DNA of 64,000 nucleotides from Aedoeadaptatus urinae (GTDB taxonomy: Bacteria; Bacillota; Clostridia; Tissierellales; Peptoniphilaceae). The position numbers were made by a program, and so were the translations under genes. Positions 43,456 through 60,710 of this stretch are shown piece after piece. The number at the start of each line of letters is the position of its first letter. Position 1 is the first letter of the stretch. Below the pieces are notes generated by a model. It saw only the letters and a program-made list of their open reading frames with translations, made no database searches and was not told the origin of the DNA. The stretch lies in assembly GCF_900155585.1 (NCBI RefSeq), contig NZ_LT707415.1, forward strand, positions 1 through 64,000, written 5' to 3'.

Positions 43456-43477
43456 AGTGAACCTCCTTCTGTTTATC

Positions 43478-45056: not shown

Positions 45057-45137
45057 CAATACACCTCATTCCATACAATTTATCTCATTTATTATAGTAT
45101 AAGTTACAAAATTATGAAAGGCGGCAGACCGTTTGCC

Positions 45138-45695: not shown

Positions 45696-46351
45696 TACAT
45701 GGCGTAGACGATTTCCGCCGCCATGTAGGCGGCGCCGTAGCCGTTGTCGATGTTTACCACGGCCACGCCCTCGGCACAGGCGTTGAGCATGCTTAAAAGG
45801 GCCGCTACGCCCTCAAAGGATGCCCCGTAGCCCACGGAGGTGGGCACGGCGATCACCGGCGATGTGACGAGGCCCGCCACCACGGAGGGCAGGGCGCCGT
45901 CCATGCCGGCAATGACGACGATGACGTCACAGGCCGAGATGGCGTCGATATTTTCGAAAAGGCGGTGAATCCCCGCCACGCCTACGTCGTAAAAGCGCGC
46001 GCTGCCCACGCCGAAATAACACAGACTCCGCACGCACTCCTCCGCCACTGCTGCGTCGGAGGTGCCCGCCGTCACCACGGCCACAGAGCCTACGGGCTCT
46101 TTTTTTGTGCCGGCCGCGGCGGTTTCGGAAAGGGGATCGTAGTCCAGTCGCTCTTTTAATTCGTCTAATTTTTCGTAAGCCTCGGGCGCCAGCCGCGTCA
46201 CGAAGACTTCCCCCTTCGCTTCAAGCAGCTCTTGAATGCAAGCTTTTAAATGATCCCTCGCCTTGCCTTCCGCGTAAACCACTTCGCCGAAAAGCCGGCG
46301 CTCATTTCGATTTTTGTCCAAATTATAAAATTGTTTGTCCTCTCTTTTCAT
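45680..46351 (-). CDS. larB: LarB, nickel-pincer cofactor synthesis carboxylase/hydrolase
   Basis: The first enzyme of the lactate-racemase nickel-pincer cofactor pathway, carboxylating nicotinic acid adenine dinucleotide. The 223-residue PurE-like protein has GEVVYAEGK, VAVVTAGTSDAAVAEE and VPTSVGYGASFEGVAALLSMLNACAEGVAVVNIDNG. The usual N terminus is about 30 residues longer. A stop codon lies 12 codons upstream with no start between, so the gene begins here as written. larC and larE are not in the window. Confidence 0.85.
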   Translation of the reverse strand: MKREDKQFYNLDKNRNERRLFGEVVYAEGKARDHLKACIQELLEAKGEVFVTRLAPEAYEKLDELKERLDYDPLSETAAAGTKKEPVGSVAVVTAGTSDAAVAEECVRSLCYFGVGSARFYDVGVAGIHRLFENIDAISACDVIVVIAGMDGALPSVVAGLVTSPVIAVPTSVGYGASFEGVAALLSMLNACAEGVAVVNIDNGYGAAYMAAEIVYAMYQKKR

Positions 46352-46451
46352 GGGCCGCTTTCCACCTTTGACAAGTCTTAAATTACGTCACTCCATCGAC
46401 ATTTCCATTCGACTTTTCCCAATGTTATAATAGTCGGGAGGATGTGATGCT

Positions 46452-47204
46452 TTGGTTCCATTGATTCGCATAAGGAATTTGTACCGAGTCTACCACATGG
46501 GCGAAGAAAAAGTCTATGCCCTTCGTGGTGTTAATTTAGATATACAGAAAGAAGAGATCCTTTGTCTTTTGGGCACGTCGGGCAGCGGCAAATCGACGCT
46601 GTTAAATATGATGGCCGGCCTGGATCGACCGAGCAAGGGCGAAATTGTTATTAACGACAAAATCCATATGGAGAAGCTTTCCGAGGAAAAGCTCACGAAG
46701 TTTCGTCAGTTAAACGTGGGCTTCGTCTTTCAGTCCTATAATTTAATTCCCACTTTGACGGCGACGGAAAATGTCAGCCTGGGGCTTATTTTTAAGGGCG
46801 TAAAGAAAAAGGAGCGGGAAGAAAAAGCCCGCGCCATTTTAGAGCGAGTGGGCCTCGGCGATCGGCTGAACCATAAGCCCAGCGAAATGAGCGGCGGCCA
46901 ACAACAACGGGTGTCCATCGCCCGGGCCTTTGTGGACGCACCGCCCATACTTTTCGCCGACGAGCCCACAGGCAATCTGGATACGAATACCTCGGTGGAG
47001 ATTATGGAAATGATGTGCGAGCTCGCCAAGGAACATAGGCAGACCCTGATCATCGTCACCCACGATTTGGAAACCGCCGTCTATGCCAATCGCATCGTCG
47101 AACTCAGGGACGGAAAAATCGTGCGGGATGAGACGCAACAGGTCAAGGAAAAAGCGCGGGAGCTGGAGCTTCTCCCCCAAGAAAACAACGAGGAGTCACT
47201 ATGA
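46452..47204 (+). CDS. ABC ATPase, LolD/MacB-like
   Basis: A 250-residue ATPase with Walker A GTSGSGKST (about 40-48), Q-loop FQSYNLIPTLT, signature MSGGQQQRVSIA, Walker B LFADEPTGNLD and a switch THDLE. MacB/LolD ATPases drive mechanotransmission across the membrane rather than solute transport. The start is TTG at 46452 after GGGAGGATG; another TTG at 46461 is possible. A TATAAT box (46426-46431) lies upstream. First of a three-gene operon; it overlaps the next gene by 4 bases (ATGA). Confidence 0.9.
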   Translation: MVPLIRIRNLYRVYHMGEEKVYALRGVNLDIQKEEILCLLGTSGSGKSTLLNMMAGLDRPSKGEIVINDKIHMEKLSEEKLTKFRQLNVGFVFQSYNLIPTLTATENVSLGLIFKGVKKKEREEKARAILERVGLGDRLNHKPSEMSGGQQQRVSIARAFVDAPPILFADEPTGNLDTNTSVEIMEMMCELAKEHRQTLIIVTHDLETAVYANRIVELRDGKIVRDETQQVKEKARELELLPQENNEESL

Positions 47205-48745
47205 AAAAACAAGCATGGCTTTTAGCCGGTTGTCTGATCCTGACAAGTGTCGCACCGCTTCATGCGGCGGCATCGAACAATGTAGGCACCATTCCCCCGA
47301 CCAAGGTGGAATCCTCGAGCCAGGCGCCCATGTCGATTTTAGATTTTACCGACATCACCTGGCCTCAAGACAACGGCACGGGAGCCGACATTCCCATTCG
47401 CTTTTCCATTAAAAACAACGGCAAGGGCGGTGCAAAAAACATTCGCATTCAAGCGGAATCTCAGGATCTAAACGGTCTGGTGCCGAAATCCGTGTCCACG
47501 GTCAATGCGAAGTACTTTGCGCCGAATCAAAAGGAGACTTACACCTTTGTCTTTCAATTGACGCCCGGTGCCGAAAAGAAAAACTACCCGGTGAAATTTA
47601 CCGTGGCCTATGTCGACGTAAACACAAATGAAGTCTTGGAAAGCAAGCAATTCGTCACCGTGCGCTCCGCCGATGGCCCCATGGACGCCTCTCGAGGCGG
47701 CGATGGCTCTGCCGGCGGCTTTTCCGGCGGCGGCGATATGGGCGGCTTCTCCGGCGGCGACATGGGCTCGCCTCTCCCCGTCACCGGTTCCGAAGGAGCT
47801 TCTTCCGGGCAGGCGCCTTCCGGCAACAACACGCCGAAGCTGGTCATCGACCACTACTCCTACGACCCAGTGGACGTCAAGGCCGGCGTGCCCTTCACCC
47901 TCTACTTCCGCATCTTAAATACTAACAGCAAAAAGACCGTACAAAATTTGCGCGTCGCCCTCACTGCCGATGCGGCTGAGGCGGTGGACGTGCCCACTGC
48001 GCCGGGACAAGGGCCTGATCAGGCTGCGGCGGCTGCCGCACCCTCGGGTGGCGGTGGCGGCAGTGCCTTTATTCCCATCGGCAGCAGCAATACTTTTTAC
48101 GTAGACAAGATCAAGCCGAAAAACCACGCGGAAAAGGAAATTACCTTGACCACGGCACCGGACACGGCGCCCCGGACCTATACCATTACGGCTAATTTCG
48201 AATACGAGGACGCCGCGGGCAATCCCTATACTTCATCGGAAGTCATCGGCATTCCCGTCATCCAAAGCTCGGAAATCGAGCTCGGCGATTTAAAAGTCGA
48301 CAAGGAAGGCTTCGTCGGCGGCGAAATGCCTTTGTCTCTGGAATTTTTTAACACGGGCAAATCAGTACTCTCTAATGTCATGGTGAAGCTGCGGGGTAAT
48401 TTCGATGCGGATACCAGTACGTATTTCGCGGGCAATGTGGCTCCCGGCAGCTCCCAAACTTACGACGTGAACATTACGCCGACGAAAAAAGGCGAACAGA
48501 AAGGCGAAGTCGTCATTACTTACGACGATTCCACGGGAAGAAAACAGGAACTGGTGAAGCCTTTCGTCATCAATGTGGAAGGCGACATGCCCACCGATGA
48601 CAAGGACGAAGAAAAAACCCGCCCCGCTTGGGCCGTTCCCTTGGGCATTCTCCTTATCGCAGGCATTGCCGGCGGCATCGGCTTCTATGTCTATAAAAAG
48701 CGCAAGAAGAATGACGGCGGCGACGACGAGGATTTGACGATCTGA
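47201..48745 (+). CDS. Membrane-anchored surface protein with CARDB-like domains
   Basis: A 514-residue protein. The signal peptide (about 1-26, LLAGCLILTSVAPLHAAA) is followed by beta-sandwich domains of the CARDB/NEW3 kind (FSIKNNGKGGAKNIRI, then LYFRILNTNSKKTVQN, then LEFFNTGKSVLSNVMV). A Gly/Ser-rich linker (about 165-205) and a second Ala/Gly stretch separate them. A C-terminal helix (about 475-497) ends in KKRKKN. The domain type is common in surface and S-layer-associated proteins. No ligand is known. It overlaps both neighbours (ATGA and TGATG), so it is part of the ABC system. Confidence 0.85.
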   Translation: MKKQAWLLAGCLILTSVAPLHAAASNNVGTIPPTKVESSSQAPMSILDFTDITWPQDNGTGADIPIRFSIKNNGKGGAKNIRIQAESQDLNGLVPKSVSTVNAKYFAPNQKETYTFVFQLTPGAEKKNYPVKFTVAYVDVNTNEVLESKQFVTVRSADGPMDASRGGDGSAGGFSGGGDMGGFSGGDMGSPLPVTGSEGASSGQAPSGNNTPKLVIDHYSYDPVDVKAGVPFTLYFRILNTNSKKTVQNLRVALTADAAEAVDVPTAPGQGPDQAAAAAAPSGGGGGSAFIPIGSSNTFYVDKIKPKNHAEKEITLTTAPDTAPRTYTITANFEYEDAAGNPYTSSEVIGIPVIQSSEIELGDLKVDKEGFVGGEMPLSLEFFNTGKSVLSNVMVKLRGNFDADTSTYFAGNVAPGSSQTYDVNITPTKKGEQKGEVVITYDDSTGRKQELVKPFVINVEGDMPTDDKDEEKTRPAWAVPLGILLIAGIAGGIGFYVYKKRKKNDGGDDEDLTI

Positions 48746-50037
48746 TGAGTTATCGCGATCTATTCGATATGGCGAAGAAGAATCTTCTCGCCAGAAAACT
48801 CCGCACGGGCCTCACCCTCCTCGGCGTGGTCATCGGCTGCGTCTCCATTATTATCATGCTCAGCTTCGGCTACGGCATGACGGAAAACAACAAGCGCATG
48901 ATCGAAGACTTCGGCGACGTGAAAAATATTAACGTCACTCAAAAGGAAGAAGGCGGTAAGGGCAAGGCCCTGACGCGCAAGACCATTTCGGAATTAAAGG
49001 AGCTGCCCCACGTGGTGGACGTGACGCCGGTTTACAACGCCAGCGTCGGCATGAAGCTTCGCAAATTTCAATCGGATTTCGTGGGCATCACCGCCATGGA
49101 AAAGCACACCTACGATTCTTTAGGTTGGGAAATGGACAAGGGCAGCTTCTTTCACGGCGACGGCAAGGGCCAAATGCTTTTCGGAAGCGGCGTCGTGGAT
49201 ATGTTTTACGATCCCACGGGCTCTACGACTATGCCCGCCATGGACGACGGCGAAGCTCCGCCTCCTTTGTTTGAAGCCGCGGGAAAGACCATGACCATTA
49301 CCTCCTCCGACGTTTCCATGATGGGAGGCAACGGGACCGGCACCGGCCTTTCCACGGAAATGAAAGTCACCGGGCTTATCGCCAAGACGAAAAAAATGGA
49401 TTACGACAACAATGTCTTTATGACCGTGGACGGCTTTATGGATTTAATGGACCGCTTAAAAATGGAACGGCCCAACACCCACGCCTACGAACGGATTCAG
49501 GTGCGGGTAGACGATATGAAAAATGCCGAAGAGGTATCCGACGGCATTAAGGCCCTGGACTACGACGCCATGGGCATGCTGGAAATGATCAAGAGCATGA
49601 ACAAGGCTATGACCATCGTCAATGCCATCTTTGCCGGCATCGGCTCCATCTCCTTTATCGTCGCCGCCATCGGCATCGCCAACACCATGATTATGTCTAT
49701 TTACGAACGCACACGGGAAATCGGCGTAATGAAAGTTATCGGCGCGTCGATTCAGGACATACAGAAGCTCTTTCTCACCGAAGCCGCCCTTATCGGCCTC
49801 ATCGGCGGGATCATCGGCGTCTTTTTAAGCCTCATGATGAGCGCGGGCTTTAATCTTATCGGCAATCGCTTTGCCATGGCCCAGGGAGCCGAGGAAGCCA
49901 TTAAGATCTCCCACATTCCCCTGTGGCTCGTGTTGGTGGCTCTCATCTTTTCCACCTTGGTGGGCATCGCCGCGGGCTACTTCCCCGCCAAGCGCGCGAT
50001 GAATCTGTCGGCACTGGATGCCATTCGCAGCGATTAA
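48745..50037 (+). CDS. FtsX/MacB-type ABC permease
   Basis: A 430-residue permease. An N-terminal helix (about 18-45), a periplasmic-side MacB core domain (about 50-275) and three C-terminal helices (about 290-410) are seen. NKAMTIVNAIFAGIGSISFIVAAIGIANTM is typical of the FtsX core, shown here in part. The conserved IYERTREIGVMKVIGAS motif contacts the ATPase. Met-rich in the outer domain. It ends the operon with the ATPase and the surface protein. Confidence 0.92.
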   Translation: MSYRDLFDMAKKNLLARKLRTGLTLLGVVIGCVSIIIMLSFGYGMTENNKRMIEDFGDVKNINVTQKEEGGKGKALTRKTISELKELPHVVDVTPVYNASVGMKLRKFQSDFVGITAMEKHTYDSLGWEMDKGSFFHGDGKGQMLFGSGVVDMFYDPTGSTTMPAMDDGEAPPPLFEAAGKTMTITSSDVSMMGGNGTGTGLSTEMKVTGLIAKTKKMDYDNNVFMTVDGFMDLMDRLKMERPNTHAYERIQVRVDDMKNAEEVSDGIKALDYDAMGMLEMIKSMNKAMTIVNAIFAGIGSISFIVAAIGIANTMIMSIYERTREIGVMKVIGASIQDIQKLFLTEAALIGLIGGIIGVFLSLMMSAGFNLIGNRFAMAQGAEEAIKISHIPLWLVLVALIFSTLVGIAAGYFPAKRAMNLSALDAIRSD

Positions 50038-50059
50038 ATTTATTCTATTCAACAAAGCG

Positions 50060-50097
50060 GAAGCCCATTGTTTTTATCTATGGGCTTCTGTTTTTTT
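50060..50097 (+). terminator. Terminator after the ABC/surface-protein operon
   Basis: GAAGCCCAT, an 11-base loop, ATGGGCTTC, then TGTTTTTTT. Confidence 0.88.
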
Positions 50098-50200
50098 ATA
50101 GAAAATCACAATGGGCATTTTCCGGTTTGCCATCCTTTTCTGTCCTTTATTTGGTAGAATGTACTCATAGTTATTGCATATCTAGAGGAGGAAGAAAACT

Positions 50201-50983
50201 ATGAAAAAACTGAACGTATTGGCTTTGGCTGCAGTCCTGGCTTTAGGTCTGACCGCCTGCGGTTCCGGCGCAAACAGCGGCGATAACGCTGCTAAAAACA
50301 ATGCTACCGCTAACAACACAGCTGCTGCCGAAAACAACAAAGCCGAAGACAAAAAGGCTGATGTAGCCGAAGTCGGTGAAATTTCCGGCGAAGAATTAGA
50401 CAAGATCATGGAAGATAAGGACGCGAAGGAAAAAGTAACGGTTATCGACGTTCGCCCTGTTGAAGATTACGAAGCAGGCCACGTTAAATATGCCATCAAC
50501 ATGCCTATCGATACCTTCGAAGAAAATCTTAACAAGATCGAAGACTTAAAGGATTCCGAAGTTATCACCATTTGCAACACCGGTAAGAAGAGCGGCCAAG
50601 CTGCCGACATTCTCGTTAAAAACGGCTTCACCAATGTTAAAAACGCTCAAGGTGTAAAAGACTTCAAATACACCACCATGACCAAGGTCACCAACGTTCG
50701 CGGTCCCGAATTTTTGGAACTCGCTAAGAGCGGCGACTACACCATTATCGACGCACGCGACGCAAAAGACTTCGAAGCAGGTCACTTAGACGGCGCTATC
50801 AACGTTCTTGTCGACGAATTCGATGCAAAATATCCCGAACTCCCCACCGACAAGCCCTTCTTGGTTCACTGCTATTCCGGCAACCGTTCCTGGGAAGTTG
50901 CTAACAAGCTGGTTGAAAAAGGCCACAAAGCAATTAACTCCAACGACGGTACGAAAGAATTTGACGGCTTCGGATTGAAGTAA
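50201..50983 (+). CDS. Lipoprotein with two rhodanese domains
   Basis: A 260-residue lipoprotein. The lipobox LTAC gives Cys20, followed by an Asn/Ala-rich linker to about 50. Two rhodanese domains follow, about 60-155 and 165-260, each with a catalytic cysteine: Cys125 in ICNTGKKS and Cys224 in HCYSGNRS. Both loops keep the RxS/KxS pattern, so both domains may be active as sulfur (or selenium) carriers. It faces the outside of the cell. It has its own terminator and AGAGGAGGAAG before the ATG. It lies just upstream of the 51-55 kb operon but is a separate unit. Confidence 0.88.
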   Translation: MKKLNVLALAAVLALGLTACGSGANSGDNAAKNNATANNTAAAENNKAEDKKADVAEVGEISGEELDKIMEDKDAKEKVTVIDVRPVEDYEAGHVKYAINMPIDTFEENLNKIEDLKDSEVITICNTGKKSGQAADILVKNGFTNVKNAQGVKDFKYTTMTKVTNVRGPEFLELAKSGDYTIIDARDAKDFEAGHLDGAINVLVDEFDAKYPELPTDKPFLVHCYSGNRSWEVANKLVEKGHKAINSNDGTKEFDGFGLK

Positions 50984-50987
50984 ATCA

Positions 50988-51021
50988 AAAAAGTGCCTTG
51001 TCGAAAGACAGGGCCTTTTTT
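50988..51021 (+). terminator. Terminator after the rhodanese lipoprotein gene
   Basis: TGCCTTGTC, GAAA, GACAGGGC, then six Ts, with A-runs upstream. Confidence 0.8.
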
Positions 51022-51030
51022 CTTATGTAG

Positions 51031-51768
51031 TTGTTTATGGAAACCATTGTTTTTTTTGCTCGCACGCCGGAAATCGGCCACGGAAAGACTCGCCTCAGGA
51101 CCGCCCTCAGCGAGGAACAGATTTTTCATATTACTCGAAAGCTTTACGACGATCTTTTAGTGACGCTGACGGACACCGGCTACCGCGTCGTGGTCTATTA
51201 CGACGGCAAGGAGCCTTCCCTCTCCCTTCCCTGCGTCCCTCAAAAGGAAGCCGATCTGGGCGAGAGGATGGCATCGTCCATCCGCACCGAAATCCAAAAG
51301 GGACCGGTGCTTCTTATGGGATGCGATCTCCTAGGCGTGGACGGCGATTTAATCGAGGAAGGCTTTCGCCTTTTAAAAGACCGGGACGTGGTTTTCGCCC
51401 CGGCGGAAGACGGCGGTTACGGCATCGTGGGCATGAGGCGATTTGTAGACGTGTTTTCCTCCATCACCTACAGCCGCCCCGACGTATTGGAAAAGACCGT
51501 TGAAAAGGCAAAGACCGCCGGTGCCACGGTGGCTCTTCTTCCCACGATTCGCGACATCGACTACTTCGAAGATTTAGTACGCGAGGCTTTGAATAGCCCC
51601 GTCGTATCAAAAGAAGAAGATGTTTTCGGCACGGTCTACACCTCCGAGGAGGGCAGCCGCCTTTGGATTTTAAAGGATAAAAACCGTGTCCCCGAACATT
51701 CCCTCTATTGCGAGCCTAAAATTATGCTCCCCTTTTACCATTCTATTCAAGCGAAGGAGGTCAAATGA
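51031..51768 (+). CDS. CofC-like transferase (DUF2064/TIGR04282 type)
   Basis: A 245-residue GT-A fold protein. It begins ETIVFFARTPEIGHGKTRLR (compare CofC's GKTRL), has LMGCDLLGVDGDLI as the nucleotide-binding acidic motif, and VFAPAEDGGYGIVGMRR, a family hallmark. The family is named transferase 1, rSAM/selenodomain-associated. The substrate is unknown, and the usual radical SAM partner is not in the window. The first codon may be TTG 51031 or ATG 51037; neither has a clear ribosome-binding site. First gene of the overlapping operon. Confidence 0.85.
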   Translation: MFMETIVFFARTPEIGHGKTRLRTALSEEQIFHITRKLYDDLLVTLTDTGYRVVVYYDGKEPSLSLPCVPQKEADLGERMASSIRTEIQKGPVLLMGCDLLGVDGDLIEEGFRLLKDRDVVFAPAEDGGYGIVGMRRFVDVFSSITYSRPDVLEKTVEKAKTAGATVALLPTIRDIDYFEDLVREALNSPVVSKEEDVFGTVYTSEEGSRLWILKDKNRVPEHSLYCEPKIMLPFYHSIQAKEVK

Positions 51769-52457
51769 AAGTCAATAAAAAAATCGTGATGCTGGCCGTT
51801 ATCGCAGCATGCGTCCTCGTTTATCTGTTTGTCCCCTCGGTCAATCAAGGCATTAACCGATCCGTTCGCATTTTAACTTCGGAAGGTATCGAAGGCATTG
51901 CCGCTTACATCCGAAGCTTCGGCGTCTATGCCGTTATCGTGTCCTTTGCGCTGATGATTTTGCAATCGTTGATTTCGCCGATTCCGGCATTCTTTATTAC
52001 CCTCGCCAACTCCGCTATTTTCGGCTGGGTCAACGGCGCCATCCTCTCCTGGTCGTCGGCCATGGCCGGAGCGGCTCTCTGCTTTTATATTTCCAGGGTC
52101 CTGGGCCGCGACGTGGCCGAAAAGTTCACGGGCAAGGGCATGCTGGAAACCGTGGATAAATTTTTCCACGACTACGGCAAATATGCCATCTTGATCGCCC
52201 GCCTCTTGCCCTTTATGTCTTTCGACCTGGTCAGCTACGCCGCCGGCCTTACGGGCATGAGCTTTTTGGCCTTCTTCGTCGCCACCGGCATCGGCCAACT
52301 TCCCGCCACCATCGTCTACTCCTATGTAGGCGGCACCTTAACCGGCGGCGCACAAAAGTTGATGACCGGCCTCTTGATTTTGTTCGCCGTCTCCATCGCG
52401 ATCTTTGTAGGCAAGAAATTGTACAATGACAAACAAAAAAACAAATCAATCGACTAA
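51765..52457 (+). CDS. TVP38/TMEM64 family membrane protein (first)
   Basis: A 230-residue protein of the DedA/VTT superfamily with five helices. The hallmark SxxGFPxSx-like region reads LARLLPFMSFDLVSYAAGLTG and PAFFITLANSAIFGWVNG. Related proteins are lipid scramblases or ion-coupled transporters. It overlaps the CofC-like gene by ATGA and the next gene by 32 bases. It is clearly a paralogue of that gene. AAGGAGGTCA precedes the ATG. Confidence 0.88.
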   Translation: MKVNKKIVMLAVIAACVLVYLFVPSVNQGINRSVRILTSEGIEGIAAYIRSFGVYAVIVSFALMILQSLISPIPAFFITLANSAIFGWVNGAILSWSSAMAGAALCFYISRVLGRDVAEKFTGKGMLETVDKFFHDYGKYAILIARLLPFMSFDLVSYAAGLTGMSFLAFFVATGIGQLPATIVYSYVGGTLTGGAQKLMTGLLILFAVSIAIFVGKKLYNDKQKNKSID

Positions 52458-53106
52458 ATTATGGGGCTACGCCAAGGTGATCCTGGCGGCAGCCCTATTC
52501 ATCCTTATTTTTCGAGAAACCAAGGACTACTTTACGGAAGCGCGCATCCGCTCCATGTTGGAAGCGGCCGGGCTTTGGGCGCCGGTGATCTACATCGGCC
52601 TGTGGGCGGTGCTGCCTGTCTTTTTCTTCCCCGTCCCCCTCTTGGTGGTGCCCAGCGGATACATTTTCGGCTCGGCCCTGGGCGTCGTCTATACTCTGGT
52701 GGGCTGTGCCGTGAATATTACCATTATGTATTTTCTGGCCGCCTCCGTGGCCCGAGACAAGATTTTGCATTTGGTGGAGGAAAAGAGCAACGACAAGATC
52801 AAAAAAGTCTTCCTGAGTCCCACGGGCACGAGTCAGGGCGTGTTTTTTATCTTTCGCCTGATTCCTTTGATCTCTTACAATCTGATCAACTACATGGCGG
52901 GAATTTTGCGCATTCGCTTTCTTCCCTATTTCGTCTTAAGCTTGATCGGCATCACCCCTGGGATCTTCGCCTTTATTTATCTTGGCGAGCAGATCCACGA
53001 TCCCTCTTCCCCGGAATTTAAGCTGGCCATTCTCTTTCTCGTTCTTTTGACCGCGGTTTCTCTCGTCCTCTTGAAAATCTACAATAAAAGGCAAAACCGT
53101 GATTAG
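52426..53106 (+). CDS. TVP38/TMEM64 family membrane protein (second)
   Basis: A 226-residue paralogue of the preceding protein, with the family motif FIFRLIPLISYNLINYMAGI and VPSGYIFGSALGVVYTL. Basic N terminus (NKKTNQSTK), then about five helices. The ATG lies 32 bases inside the previous gene; no other start with a ribosome-binding site occurs before the first helix. Two tandem members in one operon suggest a heterodimer or two separate transport steps. Confidence 0.88.
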   Translation: MTNKKTNQSTKLWGYAKVILAAALFILIFRETKDYFTEARIRSMLEAAGLWAPVIYIGLWAVLPVFFFPVPLLVVPSGYIFGSALGVVYTLVGCAVNITIMYFLAASVARDKILHLVEEKSNDKIKKVFLSPTGTSQGVFFIFRLIPLISYNLINYMAGILRIRFLPYFVLSLIGITPGIFAFIYLGEQIHDPSSPEFKLAILFLVLLTAVSLVLLKIYNKRQNRD

Positions 53107-53746
53107 TATCGTCATTCCCACTTACAACGAAATCGAGCACATCCACGCCTTTCAAGAGGCTCTGGACGCCTTCGGCGGCCGGGCGGAAATCTTGTTTTCC
53201 GACGGCGGCAGCACCGACGGCACCTATGATGCCATTCGCTATCCGAAAATTCGGGAGGCGAAGGGCCGCGGCGCACAGCTGGCGGCCGGTGCGAAAAAAG
53301 CGACGGGAGACGTGCTCTGGTTTTTACACGCCGACACCTTTTTCCCGAAAGAGGCCTTGGATGCCGTGGAAGCCTGCGGAGCCCCTTGGGGCGCCTTTAA
53401 GCTTCGCTTTTCGTCGAAGGACCCCATGATGAAGGTGGTGGCCTTTAATTCCAACAACCGCGTTCGCTTTCGTCGCATCGTCTTCGGCGATCAGGGTATG
53501 TTTTTAAAGCGGGAGCTTTACGAAAAAATCGGCGGCTTTCAACCCATTCCCCTTATGGAAGATTACGATCTGTCCATCCGTCTGAAAAGCGCCGGCTACG
53601 TGCCCGAGCTGCTGCCTTTAAAGCTTACCACCGACGCCTGCCGCTTCGAGGAGAACGGCATTTGGAAGACGATTCTGCATATGCAGCGCCTACAACGGGA
53701 CTTTCGCCGCGGCGTGGACCCTGCGGAGCTCGCCAAGCGCTACTGA
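53099..53746 (+). CDS. Family 2 glycosyltransferase (TIGR04283 type)
   Basis: A 215-residue GT-A glycosyltransferase. It starts at GTG 53099 with ISIVIPTYNE. The DxD-like motif is in SDGGSTDGT, followed by KGRGAQLAAGAKKATGDVLW, FLHADTFFP and GDQGMFLKRELYEKIGGF-PIPLMEDYDL, all hallmarks of transferase 2, rSAM/selenodomain-associated. It overlaps the TVP38 gene by 8 bases. Acceptor unknown. Its pairing with the CofC-like transferase matches the co-occurrence that gave both families their names. Confidence 0.87.
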   Translation: MISIVIPTYNEIEHIHAFQEALDAFGGRAEILFSDGGSTDGTYDAIRYPKIREAKGRGAQLAAGAKKATGDVLWFLHADTFFPKEALDAVEACGAPWGAFKLRFSSKDPMMKVVAFNSNNRVRFRRIVFGDQGMFLKRELYEKIGGFQPIPLMEDYDLSIRLKSAGYVPELLPLKLTTDACRFEENGIWKTILHMQRLQRDFRRGVDPAELAKRY

Positions 53747-53757
53747 AAGGAGCCATT

Positions 53758-54702
53758 ATGATTTCTTACGCCAGGGACAACTGCATCCAATGCGGCCGCT
53801 GCACCCGCGTCTGTCCCTTTCTTGAGCACTACGCCATGGATCTTGAGGGCTTTTCACATCGCCCGGATCTGCGCAGCGAGTGCTACCTTTGCGACAATTG
53901 CAAGCGAGTCTGCCCGAAGACTATTTCCGGCCGGGAGATCGCCATGGAAATGCGCGTGAAGGATCCCTTGCCCGCCCGCAAGGTGCGCTTTCAAAAGGAT
54001 CCCTATCTGCTTCGCAATTTGCAGAAGAAAAACACGAAGACCCTCCTCTACCTGGGCTGCAATTATCCCGGCCAATATCCGGAAACCTGCAAGGCCTTAA
54101 TCGCCCTCTGCGCCGAGCGGGGCGTGGATTTTTCCGTGGACTGCTGCAAGAAGCCCATCGAGCAAAAGGGCATTCCCCTTTCCGCCGACAAGATTTTCGA
54201 TTCGGTGAAAGATCGGGGCATCGAACGCTTGATTTGCTGCTGCCCCAATTGTTACCGCACCATGAAAAATCGCGGGGACATTGAGGTCATTTCCGTCTAC
54301 GATTATTTAGAGGAAGAAGGGCTTTTACACACCTTGCCCGAAGAAGATATTCCCGTCTACATACCCTGCGGCGATCGTGAAAATTTGGATTTCTTCCGCG
54401 CCATCGAGCCCTATTTAAAGAGCTACCGCATGCCCTACGAATCCGTTCATTGCTGCGGTTTGGGCGGCGGCGGAAAACACAATGCCGACGTGGACGGGAC
54501 GATTAAAGATCGCTTCAAGGAAATCTACGAGGAGGAAAAGAGCATTTGGACCTACTGCGCCAGCTGCTCCATTCGATTCAACGCCTACGAAATGAATCAT
54601 GCGGTTAATTTCCTCTCCGCCTTTTTAGGCATTTACGAAGCGCCCTCCACCTCTTATATGAAAAATGTCATTTCTTTTAAAGGATATCCCCATGGAAAGT
54701 AA
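53758..54702 (+). CDS. Iron-sulfur protein with two CCG domains
   Basis: A 314-residue protein resembling HdrB/GlcF-type subunits. Two ferredoxin clusters at the N terminus: Cys9, 12, 15, 19 and Cys42, 45, 48, 52. The first CCG-type domain has Cys101, Cys129-Cys130-Lys131 and CPNC (162-165), so it reads CCK instead of CCG. The second has Cys204, CCG at 232-234 and CASC (267-270), a complete motif. It probably carries electrons or cleaves disulfides, and cytoplasmic location is likely. AAGGAGCC precedes the ATG at 53758; a longer reading frame into the GT2 gene is spurious. Confidence 0.9.
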   Translation: MISYARDNCIQCGRCTRVCPFLEHYAMDLEGFSHRPDLRSECYLCDNCKRVCPKTISGREIAMEMRVKDPLPARKVRFQKDPYLLRNLQKKNTKTLLYLGCNYPGQYPETCKALIALCAERGVDFSVDCCKKPIEQKGIPLSADKIFDSVKDRGIERLICCCPNCYRTMKNRGDIEVISVYDYLEEEGLLHTLPEEDIPVYIPCGDRENLDFFRAIEPYLKSYRMPYESVHCCGLGGGGKHNADVDGTIKDRFKEIYEEEKSIWTYCASCSIRFNAYEMNHAVNFLSAFLGIYEAPSTSYMKNVISFKGYPHGK

Positions 54703-55081
54703 CGAAGAAAAGAATTGCGCCCAAGTGGTGCTTGGAAGCTTCAGCGAAGGCCTCGGCTTGGACAAGGAAAAGGCGGAAGCCTTGGCCGCCCCCTTCGGCG
54801 GCGGTCGCTACGGCGGCGAAACCTGCGGCTGCGTCACCGCCGCTACCATGGTCCTGGGCCTGGCCTACGACGGCACCGACTTGTTTGAAAAGGTCAAGGC
54901 CTTCGACAATGCGTTTAACGAGGAAAACGGCCACACCGTCTGCCGGGATATTTTAGGCCACGACTTTTCTCGTCCCGGCGAATTGGAGGCGGCTTATGCC
55001 GACGGCAGCGTCCAAAGCCACTGCCCCCGCTGCATCGAATCTTCCATCTCCATTTTGAATAAACTCTTGGAAGAAGAATAA
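54692..55081 (+). CDS. C_GCAxxG_C_C family redox protein
   Basis: A 129-residue cysteine-rich protein. The pattern is Cys9 (NCAQVVLGSF), Cys45 and Cys47 (GGETCGCVTAATMVLGLAY), Cys84 (HTVCRDILGHD), and Cys111 and Cys114. This is the C_GCAxxG_C_C family, thought to bind an iron-sulfur cluster or act in redox reactions. Cysteines are standard, with no in-frame TGA selenocysteine. The start at 54692 follows AAAGGA and overlaps the iron-sulfur gene by 11 bases. Last gene of the operon. Confidence 0.87.
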   Translation: MESNEEKNCAQVVLGSFSEGLGLDKEKAEALAAPFGGGRYGGETCGCVTAATMVLGLAYDGTDLFEKVKAFDNAFNEENGHTVCRDILGHDFSRPGELEAAYADGSVQSHCPRCIESSISILNKLLEEE

Positions 55082-55094
55082 TTTTTCCCATTAG

Positions 55095-55124
55095 AAAAGG
55101 ACCTCGCGAAAGAGGTCCTTTTTT
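55095..55124 (+). terminator. Bidirectional terminator between two converging operons
   Basis: AAAAGGACCTC, GCGAAA, GAGGTCCTTTT with T-runs on both sides. It ends the 51-55 kb operon and the leftward glycan operon. Confidence 0.88.
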
Positions 55125-55128
55125 CGTG

Positions 55129-55491
55129 CTAATCCTGTGCTTGTGCCATGGCATCCTCCACCGCCGCCTTCAATCCCTCGGAAGTTTCCGTGGCGCCGGC
55201 AATGCCGTCTACCGCCGTGGAATTTTTCTTCGTCATGGCGCCGGGAATCTTTTCCAGGGCGCTCTCTACCTGAGGCACTTGCTGTGGCGATTCGCCGTGG
55301 CTCTTCACGACGATCTCGGCGATCCGCCCGTCTTGAACGGTGACGCTCACCACAATGGGCTCGGATTGATTGTACCCCTCTCCCCTGCCTTCGTAGGTGC
55401 CGTCCTTGTGCGGTCGGTTCTTCCCGCAACCGCTGAGAAAGAGGGCGACGAGCAGGCTAAGGACGAGGAGAGTCTTCCTCACAGATTTCAT
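55129..55491 (-). CDS. FMN-binding-domain lipoprotein
   Basis: A 120-residue lipoprotein; lipobox LSGC gives Cys22. The rest is one FMN-binding domain (DGTYEGRGEGYNQSEP, then VSVTVQDGRIAEIVV) ending in the flavinylation motif DGIAGATETS (95-104). Such domains carry covalent FMN and take part in extracytoplasmic electron transfer. Its ATG overlaps the transketolase stop (TAATG). Why it ends a glycan operon is unclear. Confidence 0.9.
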   Translation of the reverse strand: MKSVRKTLLVLSLLVALFLSGCGKNRPHKDGTYEGRGEGYNQSEPIVVSVTVQDGRIAEIVVKSHGESPQQVPQVESALEKIPGAMTKKNSTAVDGIAGATETSEGLKAAVEDAMAQAQD

Positions 55492-57482
55492 TACTTGCGG
55501 CTCTTTAAATAGGCCGCGGCATGTTCGTAGACGCCTTCCGCCGTTAAGCCGAAGCGCTTAAAGACATCGGCGGCATTGCCCGATGCGCCGAAGGATTCCA
55601 TGCCCAGGGCCAAGCCGTCCAGGCCCACGTATTTGTGCCAGCCCATGGTGGATGCGGCTTCCACGGAAATTCTGTTGCGAAGATCGGCGGGAAGCACGGC
55701 TTCTTTGTATTCCGCCGGCTGTTCGTTGAAGAGTTCCTGCGACGGCATACTGACGACACGCACGCCGTAGCCGTCTTTTTCTAAAGCTTCGGCGCTTTCA
55801 AGGGCGAGGTGCACCTCGCTTCCCGTGGCGATAATGATCAGATCCAAATTTCCTGATTCTTTCTTTATGACGTAGCCGCCCTTTAAGGCGTCTTTGGACG
55901 AGCCATCGAGCTCCGGCAAGGTTTGACGCGTAAAGATCATGCTCACGGGCTCATCTTTGCTGTGCATGGCCACGTACCAGGCGGCGGCCACTTCCGTGGA
56001 ATCCGCCGGGCGGAAGGTAATCATATTGGGAATGGAGCGCAGCATGGCCAGATGCTCGATAGGTTGGTGAGTGGGCCCGTCTTCGCCGACGCCGATGCTG
56101 TCGTGGGTGAAGATGTAGGACGTGGGAATGCCCATAAGGGCCGCCAGACGCAGCTGCGGCTTCATGTAGTCGCTGAAAACCAGGAAGGTGGCGCCGTAGG
56201 AGCGGAAGCCGCCGTGGAGGTAGATGCCGTTCACGATGGCGCCCATGGCGTGTTCTCTGACGCCGAAATTAATATTGCCTCCGGGACGATTGTCCACGCT
56301 GTATTGGCCTTCGCCCTTCATGTCGCTCTTGTTGGAGGGGCCCAGGTCGGCGCTACCGCCGAAGAGGTTGCCCATGCCGGCGGCGACGCGCTGCAGCATT
56401 TCGTGGGAGCTGGCCCTGGTGGCCATGTCTTTTTCCACCGGCGCCCAATAGGCGTCCTCGTCCATAAAGGAGAGGTCCTGTTTCTTCGTATCGTAGGTGG
56501 CGAGGAAATCCTCGTACTTTTGAGGGAAGGCTTCCTTATACTCTGCTTCCATGGCCTTCCACGCCTCGTAGACCTTGCGCTTTTCTTCCATCTTTTCGGC
56601 AACCAATGCCTTGACTTCATCGGCCACTTCAAAGGGTGCCACGTCGTAGCCTAGTTTTTCCCTGGTGGCTTTATTTTTTTCTTCGCCCAAGGGCGAGCCG
56701 TGAACGCCGGCGGAGCCTTCCAAGGGCGAGCCGTAGCCGATGGCGGTTTTAATTTCGATAAGGGTAGGCTTGACCTTTTCCTGTTTCGCCGCTTCCACCG
56801 CCTGAGTAATGGCTTCGATGTCCGTACCGTCTTCCACGATAAGGACTTGCCAGCCCAAGGCGCGGTAGCGCGCGGCGATGTCTTCTTTAAAGGAAAGCTC
56901 CGTATTGCCTTCGATGGTAATGTTATTGGAGTCGTAAAGGACGACAAGTTTTCCCAGCTCCAAGGTGCCGGCGATGGACGAGGCTTCGTTGCTGATGCCT
57001 TCCATTAGGTCGCCGTCGCCGCAAAGGACGTAAGTATAGTGGTCGACGAAATCATAGCCCGGCTCGTTGTACTTGGCCGCCAGGCGGGTTTCCGCCATGG
57101 CAAAGCCCACGGCCGTGGAAATCCCGGCTCCTAAGGGCCCCGTCGTGGTTTCCACGCCGGCGGTGTGGCCGTATTCCGGATGGCCCGGCGTCTTGGAATC
57201 CAGTTGACGGAAATTCTTTAAATCTTCCACCGTGAGACCCAAGCCGAAAAGATGGAACAGGGAATACAAGAGGGCGCTGCCGTGGCCGGCGCTTAAAATA
57301 AATCGGTCGCGATTGGGCCACAGATGATCCTCGGGATCGAAGTTTAATGTGTTGGCCCACAAGGCCCAAGCCATGGGCGCCGCGCCCAGGGGAAGCCCCG
57401 GGTGACCTGAATTGGCCGCGTCGATCTGATCGATGGACAGAGCCCGCAAGGTATTGACCGCGAACTGTTCGTTATGATTCAT
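55491..57482 (-). CDS. tkt: Transketolase
   Basis: Thiamine-diphosphate enzyme of the pentose phosphate pathway. The 663-residue full-length form shows the TPP motif CGDGDLMEGISNEAASIAG-like stretch (GDGDLMEGISNEASS), the N-terminal GHPGLPLGAAPMAWALW, the PYR-domain GVREHAMGAIVNG and a C-terminal domain. It overlaps the TagA gene by 11 bases with AGGAGGATCTC before the ATG. Placement at the end of a cell-wall glycan operon suggests its sugar phosphates feed the pathway, but this is inference. Confidence 0.97.
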   Translation of the reverse strand: MNHNEQFAVNTLRALSIDQIDAANSGHPGLPLGAAPMAWALWANTLNFDPEDHLWPNRDRFILSAGHGSALLYSLFHLFGLGLTVEDLKNFRQLDSKTPGHPEYGHTAGVETTTGPLGAGISTAVGFAMAETRLAAKYNEPGYDFVDHYTYVLCGDGDLMEGISNEASSIAGTLELGKLVVLYDSNNITIEGNTELSFKEDIAARYRALGWQVLIVEDGTDIEAITQAVEAAKQEKVKPTLIEIKTAIGYGSPLEGSAGVHGSPLGEEKNKATREKLGYDVAPFEVADEVKALVAEKMEEKRKVYEAWKAMEAEYKEAFPQKYEDFLATYDTKKQDLSFMDEDAYWAPVEKDMATRASSHEMLQRVAAGMGNLFGGSADLGPSNKSDMKGEGQYSVDNRPGGNINFGVREHAMGAIVNGIYLHGGFRSYGATFLVFSDYMKPQLRLAALMGIPTSYIFTHDSIGVGEDGPTHQPIEHLAMLRSIPNMITFRPADSTEVAAAWYVAMHSKDEPVSMIFTRQTLPELDGSSKDALKGGYVIKKESGNLDLIIIATGSEVHLALESAEALEKDGYGVRVVSMPSQELFNEQPAEYKEAVLPADLRNRISVEAASTMGWHKYVGLDGLALGMESFGASGNAADVFKRFGLTAEGVYEHAAAYLKSRK

Positions 57483-58287
57483 GAGATCCTCCTCTGTTTT
57501 CTTTCACGACGGTGACCGCCTTTTTATTTCGTGCAATGGCCCACAAGAATTTCGGAATGGCTATCTGCCTCCCGATGCGGGACGGATTTTTCAGCAAGCG
57601 GTAAAACCATTCCAGGTGCAGGCGAATGAAAACCTCCGGCGCCCGCTTGGCCTTTCCCGCCAGCACATCCAGTACGCCGCCGTTGCCGATGGCTAGGGTT
57701 ATGTGCTCCAGCTTGTCTCTATTGTTTAAAATAAAATCTTCCTGCTTGGGAAAGCCCAGGCCCACGAAGAGAATGGAGGCGCCGCTTTCGTTGATGGCCC
57801 TGATCACCGCCGCCTCCTCCTCGGAATTTTCGAAGCCGCGGTGGGCGCCTTTAAAGTAGCCGTGGTTCTCCCCGGCGACGATGGGGCCGTATTTTTCCTC
57901 CACCCGCTTCTTCGCCTCCTTGGCGATGCCGGGCTCGCCGCCTAAAAAGAAAATCGTCTTGTTTTTCTCCCGCGCCAGCTCCAAAAGGTAGAGGGAAAGA
58001 TCGTAGCCGGTGACCCGCTCCTTCAGGGGATGGCCTCCCATTTTCGAGCCGATGACCAGGCCGATGCCGTCGGGAACAACCAGATCCGCGCCGTTCATGA
58101 CGCGGGCTTTCTCTCTATCGCCTTTCAGTGCCATGACGATTTCCGTGTTGGGGGTGAAGACCCAATGGAAGCCCCCTTTGTCGATGAAGTCGGAAAGAAT
58201 CCTGCGGCTCTCCTCTTCGCTGACGTCGTCCACGGCGGTGTTAAAGATTTTAATCTTATCCTTAGGATTGCAAAAGTTCGAAGACAT
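57472..58287 (-). CDS. TagA/WecG/CpsF family glycosyltransferase
   Basis: A 271-residue glycosyltransferase that, in family members, adds N-acetylmannosamine to a lipid-linked GlcNAc (TagA) or similar. Signature features are FTPNTEIVMALKGDRE, ADLVVPDGIGLVIGSK, FFLGGEPGIAKEA and a C-terminal IFVGLGFPKQEDFI-like stretch (ILFVGLGFPKQEDFI). I placed the start at 58287, about 10 bases after AGGAGG, since the earlier ATG is too close. It overlaps csaB by 26 bases. Confidence 0.93.
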   Translation of the reverse strand: MSSNFCNPKDKIKIFNTAVDDVSEEESRRILSDFIDKGGFHWVFTPNTEIVMALKGDREKARVMNGADLVVPDGIGLVIGSKMGGHPLKERVTGYDLSLYLLELAREKNKTIFFLGGEPGIAKEAKKRVEEKYGPIVAGENHGYFKGAHRGFENSEEEAAVIRAINESGASILFVGLGFPKQEDFILNNRDKLEHITLAIGNGGVLDVLAGKAKRAPEVFIRLHLEWFYRLLKNPSRIGRQIAIPKFLWAIARNKKAVTVVKENRGGSHES

Positions 58288-59362
58288 GTTGCACATTCCT
58301 CCTGCTTTTTTCCAAAAGCTCCCCATGGCGGGTTCGTAAACGCAGCCGCTCCTCGTCCTTTTTTCGATACATGGCCACCACGGCGTTTAAAAGCTTTTTC
58401 TCATCCATGCCCTCGGCGCAAATGTCCGAAGGAATGGCCAGGGAATCCAGCTGGGCCTTGACCTTGGGATCGTAGACGATGCCCACCGCCGGGGTCTTCG
58501 ACGTCACGGCGTAAATCAACGCGTGAAGACGCATGCCGATAATGAGGTCGCAGAGGCCGATGATGCCTTCCATTTCCTCCACGGCGTAATTGCCGCTTAG
58601 AACGTGGCAATGATTCCTGTGAACCATCTTCGTCTTAATGGCCTCGGCGAAGTGTTTGTCTTCCGGATAATGGAGGGGCGTAAACAAAATGTCGATGCCC
58701 AATTCTTCATAAGCCCGGTCGGCGACGTAGGCGATTTTAGACGCCAAAGCCGGCGCCTTCTTCCATTGGCGCACGGCGACGCCCAAAAAATGCTTGTCAC
58801 TGTCGATGCCTTCTTCCCGAAGGAGGGCCTTCGCCGCCTCGAGGCTGATGCCGTCGATACCGTAAACGGGATCGGCGGTGACTTCCACAGGGGGGACGTC
58901 GACGCCGATGTCTTTCAGCACCTGAGCGCTGTCTTCATCGCGAAGGGTAATATAATCCACCTTGTTTAAAATCCGCGCCGTCAATTTGCGGTTCAGGGCC
59001 TTGTGAATGGGGCCGACGCCGTTGGCATAGACGTAAATCTTTTTTCCCATGCGCTTGGCAAGGGCCATGACGCCCAGATAGTAATACAAGCTCCTCGACG
59101 AGGTTTCGTCTTGTAAGAGGGATCCCCCGCCGCTGATCAACAGATCCGCGTTCGACAGCGCCTTCTTCACGGACTTATAGTGAAAGCGCTGAGTTGCGTT
59201 CACGCCGTAGAGCCTGCGGGTTCTCGGCGGATCGTAGGAGAGGACATTTAATTGTACGGTGGGATCACAGGCGCGAATATCGTTGACGATGGCGTGCAGG
59301 ATCGCATCGTCGCCGCTATTGTCGAAGCCGTAATAGCCGCTAAATAAAACTTTCTTTCCCAT
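58262..59362 (-). CDS. csaB: Polysaccharide pyruvyl transferase CsaB
   Basis: A 366-residue enzyme that pyruvylates a cell-wall polymer, a modification which SLH-domain surface proteins bind. It opens KVLFSGYYGFDNSGDDAIL and has DLLISGGGSLLQDETSSRSL, VYANGVGPI and a C-terminal CDLIIGMRLHALI (about 260-275). AAAGGATGG precedes the ATG at 59362; the earlier in-frame ATG at 59428 is inside the ligase gene and is less likely. No SLH-domain protein lies in the window. Confidence 0.95.
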   Translation of the reverse strand: MGKKVLFSGYYGFDNSGDDAILHAIVNDIRACDPTVQLNVLSYDPPRTRRLYGVNATQRFHYKSVKKALSNADLLISGGGSLLQDETSSRSLYYYLGVMALAKRMGKKIYVYANGVGPIHKALNRKLTARILNKVDYITLRDEDSAQVLKDIGVDVPPVEVTADPVYGIDGISLEAAKALLREEGIDSDKHFLGVAVRQWKKAPALASKIAYVADRAYEELGIDILFTPLHYPEDKHFAEAIKTKMVHRNHCHVLSGNYAVEEMEGIIGLCDLIIGMRLHALIYAVTSKTPAVGIVYDPKVKAQLDSLAIPSDICAEGMDEKKLLNAVVAMYRKKDEERLRLRTRHGELLEKSRRNVQHVFELLQS

Positions 59363-60710
59363 AACAATCCATCCTTTTCTCCGCAAGGGGGTTTGCGAGA
59401 TCTTTTTTGCAAATTCGTACGAGGGCAAAGGTCACGGCCAAAAGCAGCCAAAAGGTGGTGGTGATCTTGGTCATGTATAAAATATTTTCAAATATACCGT
59501 GAAAGAGCATGCCGGCAATTGACGACGCCACCGCCGCGCCCATAATCTTTACATAGCAGTTTTCGCTCTTTAGAGGATAGCGGGCCAGATTGACGAAGAT
59601 GCTGACCATGAAAATCAGAAAGAGCAGGAAGCCGATAACGCCCATTTCCGCAAAGATTTGTAGAAAAGTGTTGTGGGCGTGGAAAATGCCCATGCCGGGC
59701 ATATACTGCTCGAAAACCGCTTTAAAGGGCCGATGTCCAAGACCCAGTCCCACGAGAAAGTGGTTGTGGATGATGATTTCCGTGATCTCCCAAATTTTAA
59801 ATCGATAGGAGGTGGATGAGTCGGCAAAATTGAAAATCGTCATAAAGCGATTGACGATGCTCGTGGGCACGAAAAACACGGCGGCTCCCATCAGGGGAAT
59901 GACCAAAAGCAAGAGCTCTTTCCTGACGAGGCAGATAAAGACGAAGGCCGCTACGGCGAGGCCCAGCCAACCGCCCCGGGACATAGTCAAAACGAGGGCT
60001 GCCGCTTGCAAAAGGAACATGGCCAGGAACAAGAGGCGCACGCCGTCCCGCTTCGTAGACCAGAAGATGCCCACGGTGAGAGGGATGGCAATGACCAAAT
60101 ACTCGGCGAAAATATTGGGATTGCCGAAAAGCGAATAGGCCCTGGCGCGAATGGGGCTGTTGGAATAGGCATCCACCCATCCCTCCTTCACATCCACCCC
60201 TCCGAGGTACTGGTAAATACCGTGGAGGGCGAGAATAGTGGCGGCGACACTGACGGCGACGATGACGCCGTGGAGCTGTTCTTCGGTCTTGATCTCGTTA
60301 ATTATAAAGATTAAATACATAAAGCCGCCGGTGTGGATGACCAAATCCCGAACCGAGCCCATGGGATAAATCGACGTCGCCGTTTGAATAATCATCAAGA
60401 GAAAATAGATATAGGGCACGATCTCGTGGCCGGCAACGATGAGAGGATCGTCTTTTTTTATAAACTTTCTAATGAGAAACAATCCGAAGGTTCCGTACAA
60501 AAGCACGAGAACGAGAGTATCCGGCAGGAAAACATAGCCGAAGGTGGTGGCAATAAGGCTGATCATGGGGTTTTCGAAAAAGACCACGACCCCGATGAAT
60601 CCCAGAAAGAGCAAGATGACAAGAGGGATCTTAACGCTCAATCCCACCCCGCCGATGACAAAGCCCAGGGCAAACAAAAGGAGGGGATTGATTTTTACTC
60701 GCGTTTCCAT
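59340..60710 (-). CDS. O-antigen ligase/polymerase-like membrane protein (copy 2)
   Basis: A 456-residue protein with about eleven helices. FGNPNIFAEYLVIAIPLTVG, LTMSRGGWLGLAVAAFVF and FHAHNTFLQIFAEMGVIGF match the Wzy/WaaL core of copy 1 (13788-15173), including the paired H-x-H region. It lacks the extra N-terminal 60 residues of copy 1. The ATG follows AAGGAGGCC and the gene overlaps both neighbours: 16 bases with the 186-residue membrane protein and 23 bases with csaB. Confidence 0.85.
   Translation of the reverse strand: METRVKINPLLLFALGFVIGGVGLSVKIPLVILLFLGFIGVVVFFENPMISLIATTFGYVFLPDTLVLVLLYGTFGLFLIRKFIKKDDPLIVAGHEIVPYIYFLLMIIQTATSIYPMGSVRDLVIHTGGFMYLIFIINEIKTEEQLHGVIVAVSVAATILALHGIYQYLGGVDVKEGWVDAYSNSPIRARAYSLFGNPNIFAEYLVIAIPLTVGIFWSTKRDGVRLLFLAMFLLQAAALVLTMSRGGWLGLAVAAFVFICLVRKELLLLVIPLMGAAVFFVPTSIVNRFMTIFNFADSSTSYRFKIWEITEIIIHNHFLVGLGLGHRPFKAVFEQYMPGMGIFHAHNTFLQIFAEMGVIGFLLFLIFMVSIFVNLARYPLKSENCYVKIMGAAVASSIAGMLFHGIFENILYMTKITTTFWLLLAVTFALVRICKKDLANPLAEKRMDCYGKESFI

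Follow-up and report, generated by a model that had tools for sequence, protein, structure and literature searches.

Organization of the operon

The analyzed window comprises 64,000 nucleotides of Aedoeadaptatus urinae (assembly GCF_900155585.1, contig NZ_LT707415.1, positions 1 to 64,000 of the forward strand). At positions 51031-55081 it contains a six-gene operon that encodes a CofC-like transferase, a GT2 glycosyltransferase, two TVP38 membrane proteins and two redox proteins, and that is read below as probably one arm of an arsenosugar-type pathway. The six open reading frames (ORFs), all on the + strand, were confirmed. The tight packing described in the initial annotation, with overlaps of ATGA, 32, 8 and 11 bases and a single terminator hairpin at the end, was borne out; the 12-base gap that it placed between the GT2 and CCG genes is in fact 11 bases long. 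The features of the locus are:

50201-50983, + strand: gene of a double-rhodanese lipoprotein (PF00581, 115 bits in two stretches), the companion directly upstream of the operon
50995-51024, + strand: terminator-like hairpin (50995-51014; 8 pairs, 5 of them G-C) followed by a T-run, separating the rhodanese gene from the operon
51037 (ATG) or 51031 (TTG) to 51768, + strand: CofC-like gene (TIGR04282)
51601-51765, + strand: C-terminal 55 residues of the CofC-like protein, the site of a fused APH-type kinase in relatives (alignments A2 and A3)
51765-52457, + strand: TVP38-A, YdjZ-type membrane protein (PF09335); ATGA overlap with the CofC-like gene
52426-53106, + strand: TVP38-B, second TVP38 membrane protein (PF09335); 32-base overlap with TVP38-A
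53099-53746, + strand: GT2 glycosyltransferase (TIGR04283); GTG start, 8-base overlap with TVP38-B
53758-54702, + strand: [4Fe-4S] dicluster and CCG (cysteine-rich) redox protein (Fer4 models, PF02754); 11-base gap after GT2
54692-55081, + strand: C_GCAxxG_C_C redox protein (PF09719); 11-base overlap with the CCG gene
55099-55124, + strand: operon terminator, a 7-pair stem with a T-run, visible in the sequence and absent from the list of a simple scan

Family assignments

Both transferases exceed the cut-offs of the families to which they had initially been assigned. The CofC-like protein scores 144.9 bits with TIGR04282 (cut-off 134) and the GT2 protein, the sole TIGR04283 match in the genome, scores 228.1 bits (cut-off 182). 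The NCBIfam names of both families already refer to arsenosugar biosynthesis, which was counted in favor of the reading proposed here. The identities of the other four proteins were upheld as well: TVP38-A and TVP38-B match the VTT domain PF09335 with 90.5 and 68.0 bits (threshold 33.9), the CCG protein passes PF02754 by a thin margin (23.0 versus 20.6 bits) and the C_GCAxxG protein matches PF09719 with 88.8 bits (gathering score 27), its TIGR01909 score of 39.4 bits being under that cut-off of 47.4. The rhodanese lipoprotein scores 84.6 bits with NF045521 ('rhoda_near_glyco'), under the cut-off of 145.

The CofC-like protein shares with CofC/FbiD-type guanylyltransferases its fold and a K-T-R-L stretch that we take to be common to CofC. 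However, membership in the F420 CofC family was rejected (TIGR03552, 24.3 bits versus a cut-off of 105), and the protein sits with a GT2 and, in relatives, with a fused kinase. Assignment of the TVP38 proteins to the undecaprenyl phosphate transporter UptA was rejected likewise, with NF052604 scores of 38.6 and 26.4 bits under a cut-off of 250.

ArsS and ArsM-like genes in the genome

ArsS adenosylates arsenic in oxo-arsenosugar biosynthesis, according to PMC12159101. The initial annotation had remarked on the absence of this usual partner of the two transferase families. The remark holds for the cluster and was rejected for the genome, where an ArsS gene over the TIGR04167 cut-off of 300 is located on another contig (G000:C2:232012-232875; 355.5 bits, 355.9 in a repeat scan) and an ArsM-like gene on contig 4. 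The ArsS protein has a Cys in its C-terminal GSSCGG. The ArsM-like gene adjoins a MIP channel gene of the same orientation, the two ORFs overlapping or abutting depending on the start codon, and its product carries Cys at FYGCGSP, NCVINL and GECIGG, presumably the arsenic-binding cysteine positions of ArsM.

The distribution of these genes was followed in an order set of 150 genomes, the window's included, 31 of which belong to the Peptoniphilaceae. Within this family, ArsS over cut-off occurs in 10 of 12 TIGR04283-positive genomes and in 0 of 19 negative ones; for ArsM-like matches above 175 bits the figures are 11 of 12 and 0 of 19 (Fisher p 1.4e-7, kinship not corrected for). The 175-bit line was set after the scores had been seen, in the gap between 180.5 bits and 67.7 bits, the latter being the best negative. 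A same-genus genome that has no operon (G124) gave neither an ArsS nor an ArsM-like match. Because both genes track TIGR04283 in this manner, the operon is read, with a probability of about 0.6, as that arm of an arsenosugar-type pathway which activates the sugar, transfers it and acts at the membrane, with ArsM and ArsS encoded at two separate loci elsewhere in the genome.

In the order as a whole, all 12 ArsS genomes are of the TIGR04283 type, 11 over cut-off and the twelfth (G043) at 167 bits. In other genera ArsS sits inside the same stretch as the transferases. Across the class, ArsS over cut-off was found in 7 of 341 genomes, too rarely for a class-wide comparison to help.

A single in-frame TGA is present in the ArsS genes of 4 of the 12 order genomes (G133, G047, G145 and G100) and of 6 of the 22 ArsS genomes in the wide set described below; these genes may encode selenoproteins. 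One in-frame TGA is also borne by eight of the family's ArsM-like matches. At L169:7734-9625 an ArsM-like protein and a MIP channel each terminate in a run of Cys (GGCCC and NNCCC), which looks like a metalloid-binding tail.

Conservation of the gene set

A second, wide set was obtained by scanning GTDB genomes, which gave 315 GT2 relatives; the best 80 of the 315 loci were kept. Counts over all 80 loci include short contigs and repeats, so that absences among them are upper bounds. In the order set, TIGR04283 over cut-off occurs in 34 of 150 genomes; the addition of G043, in which the 167-bit GT2 lies beside ArsS, gives 35 TIGR04283-type genomes, and gene surroundings were compared for the 34 of these other than the window's. 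A CofC-like gene shares the stretch with the TIGR04283 gene in 35/35. Among named genomes in the best 80 loci, the closest GT2 is that of Aedoeadaptatus pacaensis (96% identity), followed by Peptoniphilus nemausensis (68%), A. coxii (67%), a metagenome-assembled genome (67% over part) and A. ivorii (63%).

Members of the window's genus and family mostly preserve the gene order rhodanese, CofC-like, TVP38, TVP38, GT2, CCG, C_GCAxxG; the last of these genes was followed in relatives by clustering. The exceptions are Finegoldia-type loci (L033, L034), which are without TVP38 within about 8 kb, and L040, which is rearranged. The Finegoldia-type loci hold ArsS, a CofC-kinase fusion, GT2, CCG and C_GCAxxG together in one cluster.

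Partners among the best 80 of 315 loci are CofC-like (67), TVP38 (67), some Fe-S partner (61), kinase (57), rhodanese (52), YnjB (35), nucleoside hydrolase (34), C_GCAxxG (30) and ArsS (20). These loci come from Firmicutes, Spirochaetes, Synergistaceae, Propionigenium (a Fusobacterium relative) and Coriobacteriales. A cluster confined to this strain, which the initial annotation had named as one of two outcomes that would speak against it, the other being transferases outside TIGR04282/TIGR04283, was therefore rejected, given the 34 order genomes and the recurrence in several phyla. The rhodanese gene accompanies the operon in relatives. Split halves of a YedE/TsuA-type transporter cluster with a LysR regulator in L044, L049, L054, L059 and L061; when members from L061 and L059 were scanned, the halves and the regulator matched NF033796 and NF040786 (246 bits, cut-off 250).

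The CofC-like protein and its lost kinase partner

The predicted structure of the CofC-like protein has a pLDDT of 96. Its 50 best fold matches are almost all nucleotidyltransferases, starting with 3cgx (uncharacterised) and continuing with the probable nucleotidyltransferase 2i5e, Rv2983 and 3-phosphoglycerate guanylyltransferase; the only kind of glycosyltransferase among them is mannosylglycerate synthase, in three rows. A sequence search with the same protein recovers only 3cgx. The alignment has 14 invariant columns over 21 proteins, the window's included, and nine over 48. Because of the fold matches, the TIGR04282 protein is probably a nucleotidyltransferase that acts after a kinase, with TIGR04283 as the glycosyltransferase.

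In relatives, a kinase with an APH/choline-kinase predicted fold lies beside the CofC-like protein or is fused to it. The fusion is present in 7/7 kinase-bearing family genomes, as expected if the two domains catalyze consecutive steps. The predicted fold places this kinase with the choline kinase, APH and S-methyl-5-thioribose (MTR) kinase superfamily, from which it differs by an N-T-E-x-N-[SN]-x-N-F loop (19 kinase-bearing rows of alignment A3). A kinase match is absent from 5 of the 12 family TIGR04283 genomes, the window's among them. In the window's genus the kinase part has shrunk to about 55 residues and its catalytic part is missing (alignments A2 and A3); the genome gave no APH-type kinase match at E ≤ 0.001 and no match to the nucleoside hydrolase of relatives. 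PNP/MTAP-type enzymes (PF01048) cannot discriminate as replacements for hydrolase and kinase, because they are present in 31/31 family genomes. In the outlying relative L043 the cluster holds an MTR kinase (TIGR01767, 378 bits), with no APH-type kinase seen in that stretch, which was counted in favor of the proposed pathway.

Relation to the E. coli ydj/ynj operon and the YnjB importer

TVP38-A shares 51.6% identity with YdjZ of E. coli over 223 residues (244 bits), a likeness that, at the sequence level, ties the locus to the uncharacterised ydjXYZ-ynjABCD operon. TVP38-B scores 64 bits to YdjX and 53 to YdjZ. The row in E. coli MG1655 consists of ydjX (TVP38), ydjY (Fe-S), ydjZ (TVP38), ynjA (AhpD-like), ynjBCD (ABC) and ynjE (rhodanese). 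FNR activates both ydjXYZ-ynjABCD and ynjE as reported in PMC3688515, where ydjXYZ-ynjAB are labeled predicted proteins. The window has in common with this row a YdjZ-type TVP38, a second TVP38, an Fe-S protein and a nearby rhodanese. However, its genome has no YnjB over cut-off (best 21.6 bits), its CCG protein gives no match to YdjY, and no GT2 or CofC-like gene is annotated in the 22 kb E. coli stretch examined. Homologues of the E. coli proteins are encoded in relatives' loci, with identities (best five matches of each) of 35-37% for YnjB, 38-40% for YnjD, 34-43% for YnjE and, in Facklamia loci, 51-53% for YdjY.

ArsS and YnjB divide the relatives between them. The 35 TIGR04283-type order genomes split cleanly, 12 having ArsS without YnjB and 23 YnjB without ArsS (matches over cut-off); because these 23 are without ArsS, the back end is not tied to arsenic. 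The other 115 order genomes contain ArsS in 0 and YnjB in 8. For the wide set, genome counts were taken from 50 of the 80 loci; the 30 left out are apparent duplicates of order genomes, short contigs, L083 (nearly the window itself) and seven others (L086, L112, L115, L121, L132, L139 and L145) dropped solely to bring the number down to 50. These 50 genomes comprise 17 with ArsS only, 23 with YnjB only, 5 with both and 5 with neither, so that exactly one of the two is present in 75 of the 85 genomes combined (both 5, neither 5). At the level of the best 80 of 315 loci the counts are 1 both, 19 ArsS only, 34 YnjB only and 26 neither.

On a quickly built GT2 tree, at least 14 changes are needed for ArsS and 15 for YnjB. 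Over paired supported branches, YnjB differs in the direction opposite to ArsS in 4.1 pairs on average, in the same direction in 0.1 and not at all in 2.8. With only 7 pairs available, the sign test remains weak (median p 0.125, range 0.03-0.63). The counts suggest that ArsS and YnjB nearly replace each other, the kinship-aware test being too weak for proof. Two family genomes, G076 and G116 (loci L035, L172 and L037), hold ArsM-like genes and the YnjB importer without ArsS; they are the only two breaks of the ArsS link in the family.

Proposed pathway and alternative explanations

The route outlined here is the one we infer, in every chemical step and substrate as well as in the roles given to the TVP38, CCG, C_GCAxxG and rhodanese proteins. 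ArsM would methylate arsenite, and the dimethylated arsenic would receive a 5'-deoxyadenosyl group through ArsS. Removal of the base would follow and the 5-substituted ribose would gain a C1 phosphate, steps for which many relatives have a candidate nucleoside hydrolase and APH-type kinase and for which a PNP/MTAP-type phosphorylase is a guess in the window genome. The CofC-like protein would join the sugar-1-phosphate to a nucleotide and GT2 would transfer the sugar to an acceptor. TVP38-A and TVP38-B may carry lipid or product across the membrane, and the CCG, C_GCAxxG and rhodanese proteins may hold arsenic or sulfur in the redox state that the route requires. The initial suggestion of a pathway in which a metabolite is activated by a nucleotide and glycosylated, in company with TVP38 and redox proteins, is supported, the part of the TVP38 and redox proteins in it staying presumptive.

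Several observations weigh against the arsenosugar assignment. The ArsS and ArsM-like genes are unlinked to the operon in the window genome, and the ArsM-like protein scores 187.6 bits with NF008823, under the cut-off of 263. Two needed steps, base removal and the kinase, have no dedicated gene found in that genome. G076 and G116 carry the operon without ArsS, G133 has ArsS yet a best ArsM match of 32.6 bits, and ArsS over cut-off is missing from 23 of the 35 TIGR04283-type order genomes. TVP38 was not found within about 8 kb of the Finegoldia-type loci L033 and L034, the stretch that the TVP38 search covered. The catalytic residue of APH enzymes is an Asp, at a position where the kinase family has Glu. 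Finally, the GT2 of the genome with the MTR kinase is under cut-off and has a very long branch in the tree.

The back end (kinase, CofC-like, GT2, TVP38, CCG and rhodanese) might instead serve a sulfur-, selenium- or other 5-modified ribose, with arsenosugar as only one of its uses and a substrate in Aedoeadaptatus that may lack arsenic. This explanation, which is possible, draws on the 23 order genomes with the YnjB importer protein in place of ArsS and on the E. coli ydjXYZ-ynjABCDE row, with no GT2 or CofC-like gene annotated in the 22 kb examined. It also draws on the genes nearby in other families: rhodaneses, YedE-type thiosulfate/selenium transporter halves and a LysR regulator of the selenium-metabolism type (246 bits, cut-off 250). 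Within the Peptoniphilaceae, however, ArsM and ArsS closely track the operon, and window positions 43001-61000 showed no gene that grouped with those for YedE or LysR. An envelope operon, in which GT2 makes a glycolipid that the TVP38 pair flips, or the pair recycles undecaprenyl phosphate like UptA, with the redox genes incidental, is improbable: the VTT domains do have a weak UptA similarity, but it is far under the cut-off, TVP38-A is of the YdjZ type, and partners of the redox, rhodanese and ArsS kinds are found repeatedly across phyla. Chance proximity of unrelated genes, which the mixed annotations alone would suggest, was rejected as highly implausible in view of the recurrence of the same families in rearranged orders in several phyla (CofC-like, TVP38, Fe-S and rhodanese in 67, 67, 61 and 52 of the best 80 of 315 loci).

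A broader and rather doubtful extension is that of a single back end, conserved throughout and made up of the kinase, the CofC-type nucleotidyltransferase, GT2, a YdjZ-type TVP38 and the Fe-S and rhodanese proteins, with two interchangeable inputs, either a 5'-metalloid nucleoside made within the cell by ArsM and ArsS or a nucleoside imported by YnjBCD and cut by a nucleoside hydrolase. The E. coli ydjXYZ-ynjABCDE genes would then represent a stripped-down importer version for nucleosides of other microbes that contain arsenic, sulfur or selenium.

Compared with the described ArsS/TIGR04282/TIGR04283 'arsenosugar biosynthesis' set, the window shares transferases over cut-off and a genome with ArsS and an ArsM-like protein. 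It differs in that the latter two are at other loci rather than beside the transferases, that two TVP38, CCG, C_GCAxxG and a rhodanese neighbor are added, and that the CofC-like protein ends in a short tail where relatives carry the kinase. The initial statement that no described system has this exact set agrees with the literature search, in whose listed matches none appeared; the set itself is not rare, occurring in several phyla, with ArsS in 20 of the best 80 loci. TIGR04283 was named in no paper of the collection searched and no title on the gene set was among the matches listed, key selenoprotein-neighborhood work lying outside the search; the most relevant literature of that kind is cited in PMC13188914. 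So far as seen, the new points are the accessory genes, the fusion with the kinase and the loss of the latter, the three-locus split, the YdjZ link and the near-replacement of ArsS by an importer.

If the arsenosugar assignment is correct, the complete route from arsenic to sugar exists in anaerobic Peptoniphilaceae commensals, distributed over three loci, and candidate enzymes become available for what follows ArsS, namely base removal, phosphorylation, activation and transfer. The almost mutually exclusive occurrence of ArsS and YnjB, with the YdjZ orthology, would then offer a concrete substrate class for the uncharacterised E. coli operon.

Transcription and neighboring genes

The end of the rhodanese gene and the start of the operon are separated by 47 or 53 bases, depending on the start codon. 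The hairpin and T-run at 50995-51024 may be an attenuator. A simple scan found no promoter-like site between the hairpin and the operon, the scan performing at chance level (3 found versus 3.5 expected). Because this short intervening space shows no promoter in the scan, read-through from the rhodanese gene into the operon may occur. An Rfam search of window positions 44000-58000 gave 0 matches.

Further upstream, at 46452-50037, are located an ABC ATPase-like ORF, a CARDB-domain protein (profile match) and an ORF of permease-like appearance. This trio is probably a separate exporter, because it adjoins the operon in L032, L036 and L083-L087 and was not seen in the other locus maps. Downstream, a small FMN-binding protein gene (PF04205; 55129-55491, - strand) converges with the operon and has a counterpart at the equal place in L032 and L036.

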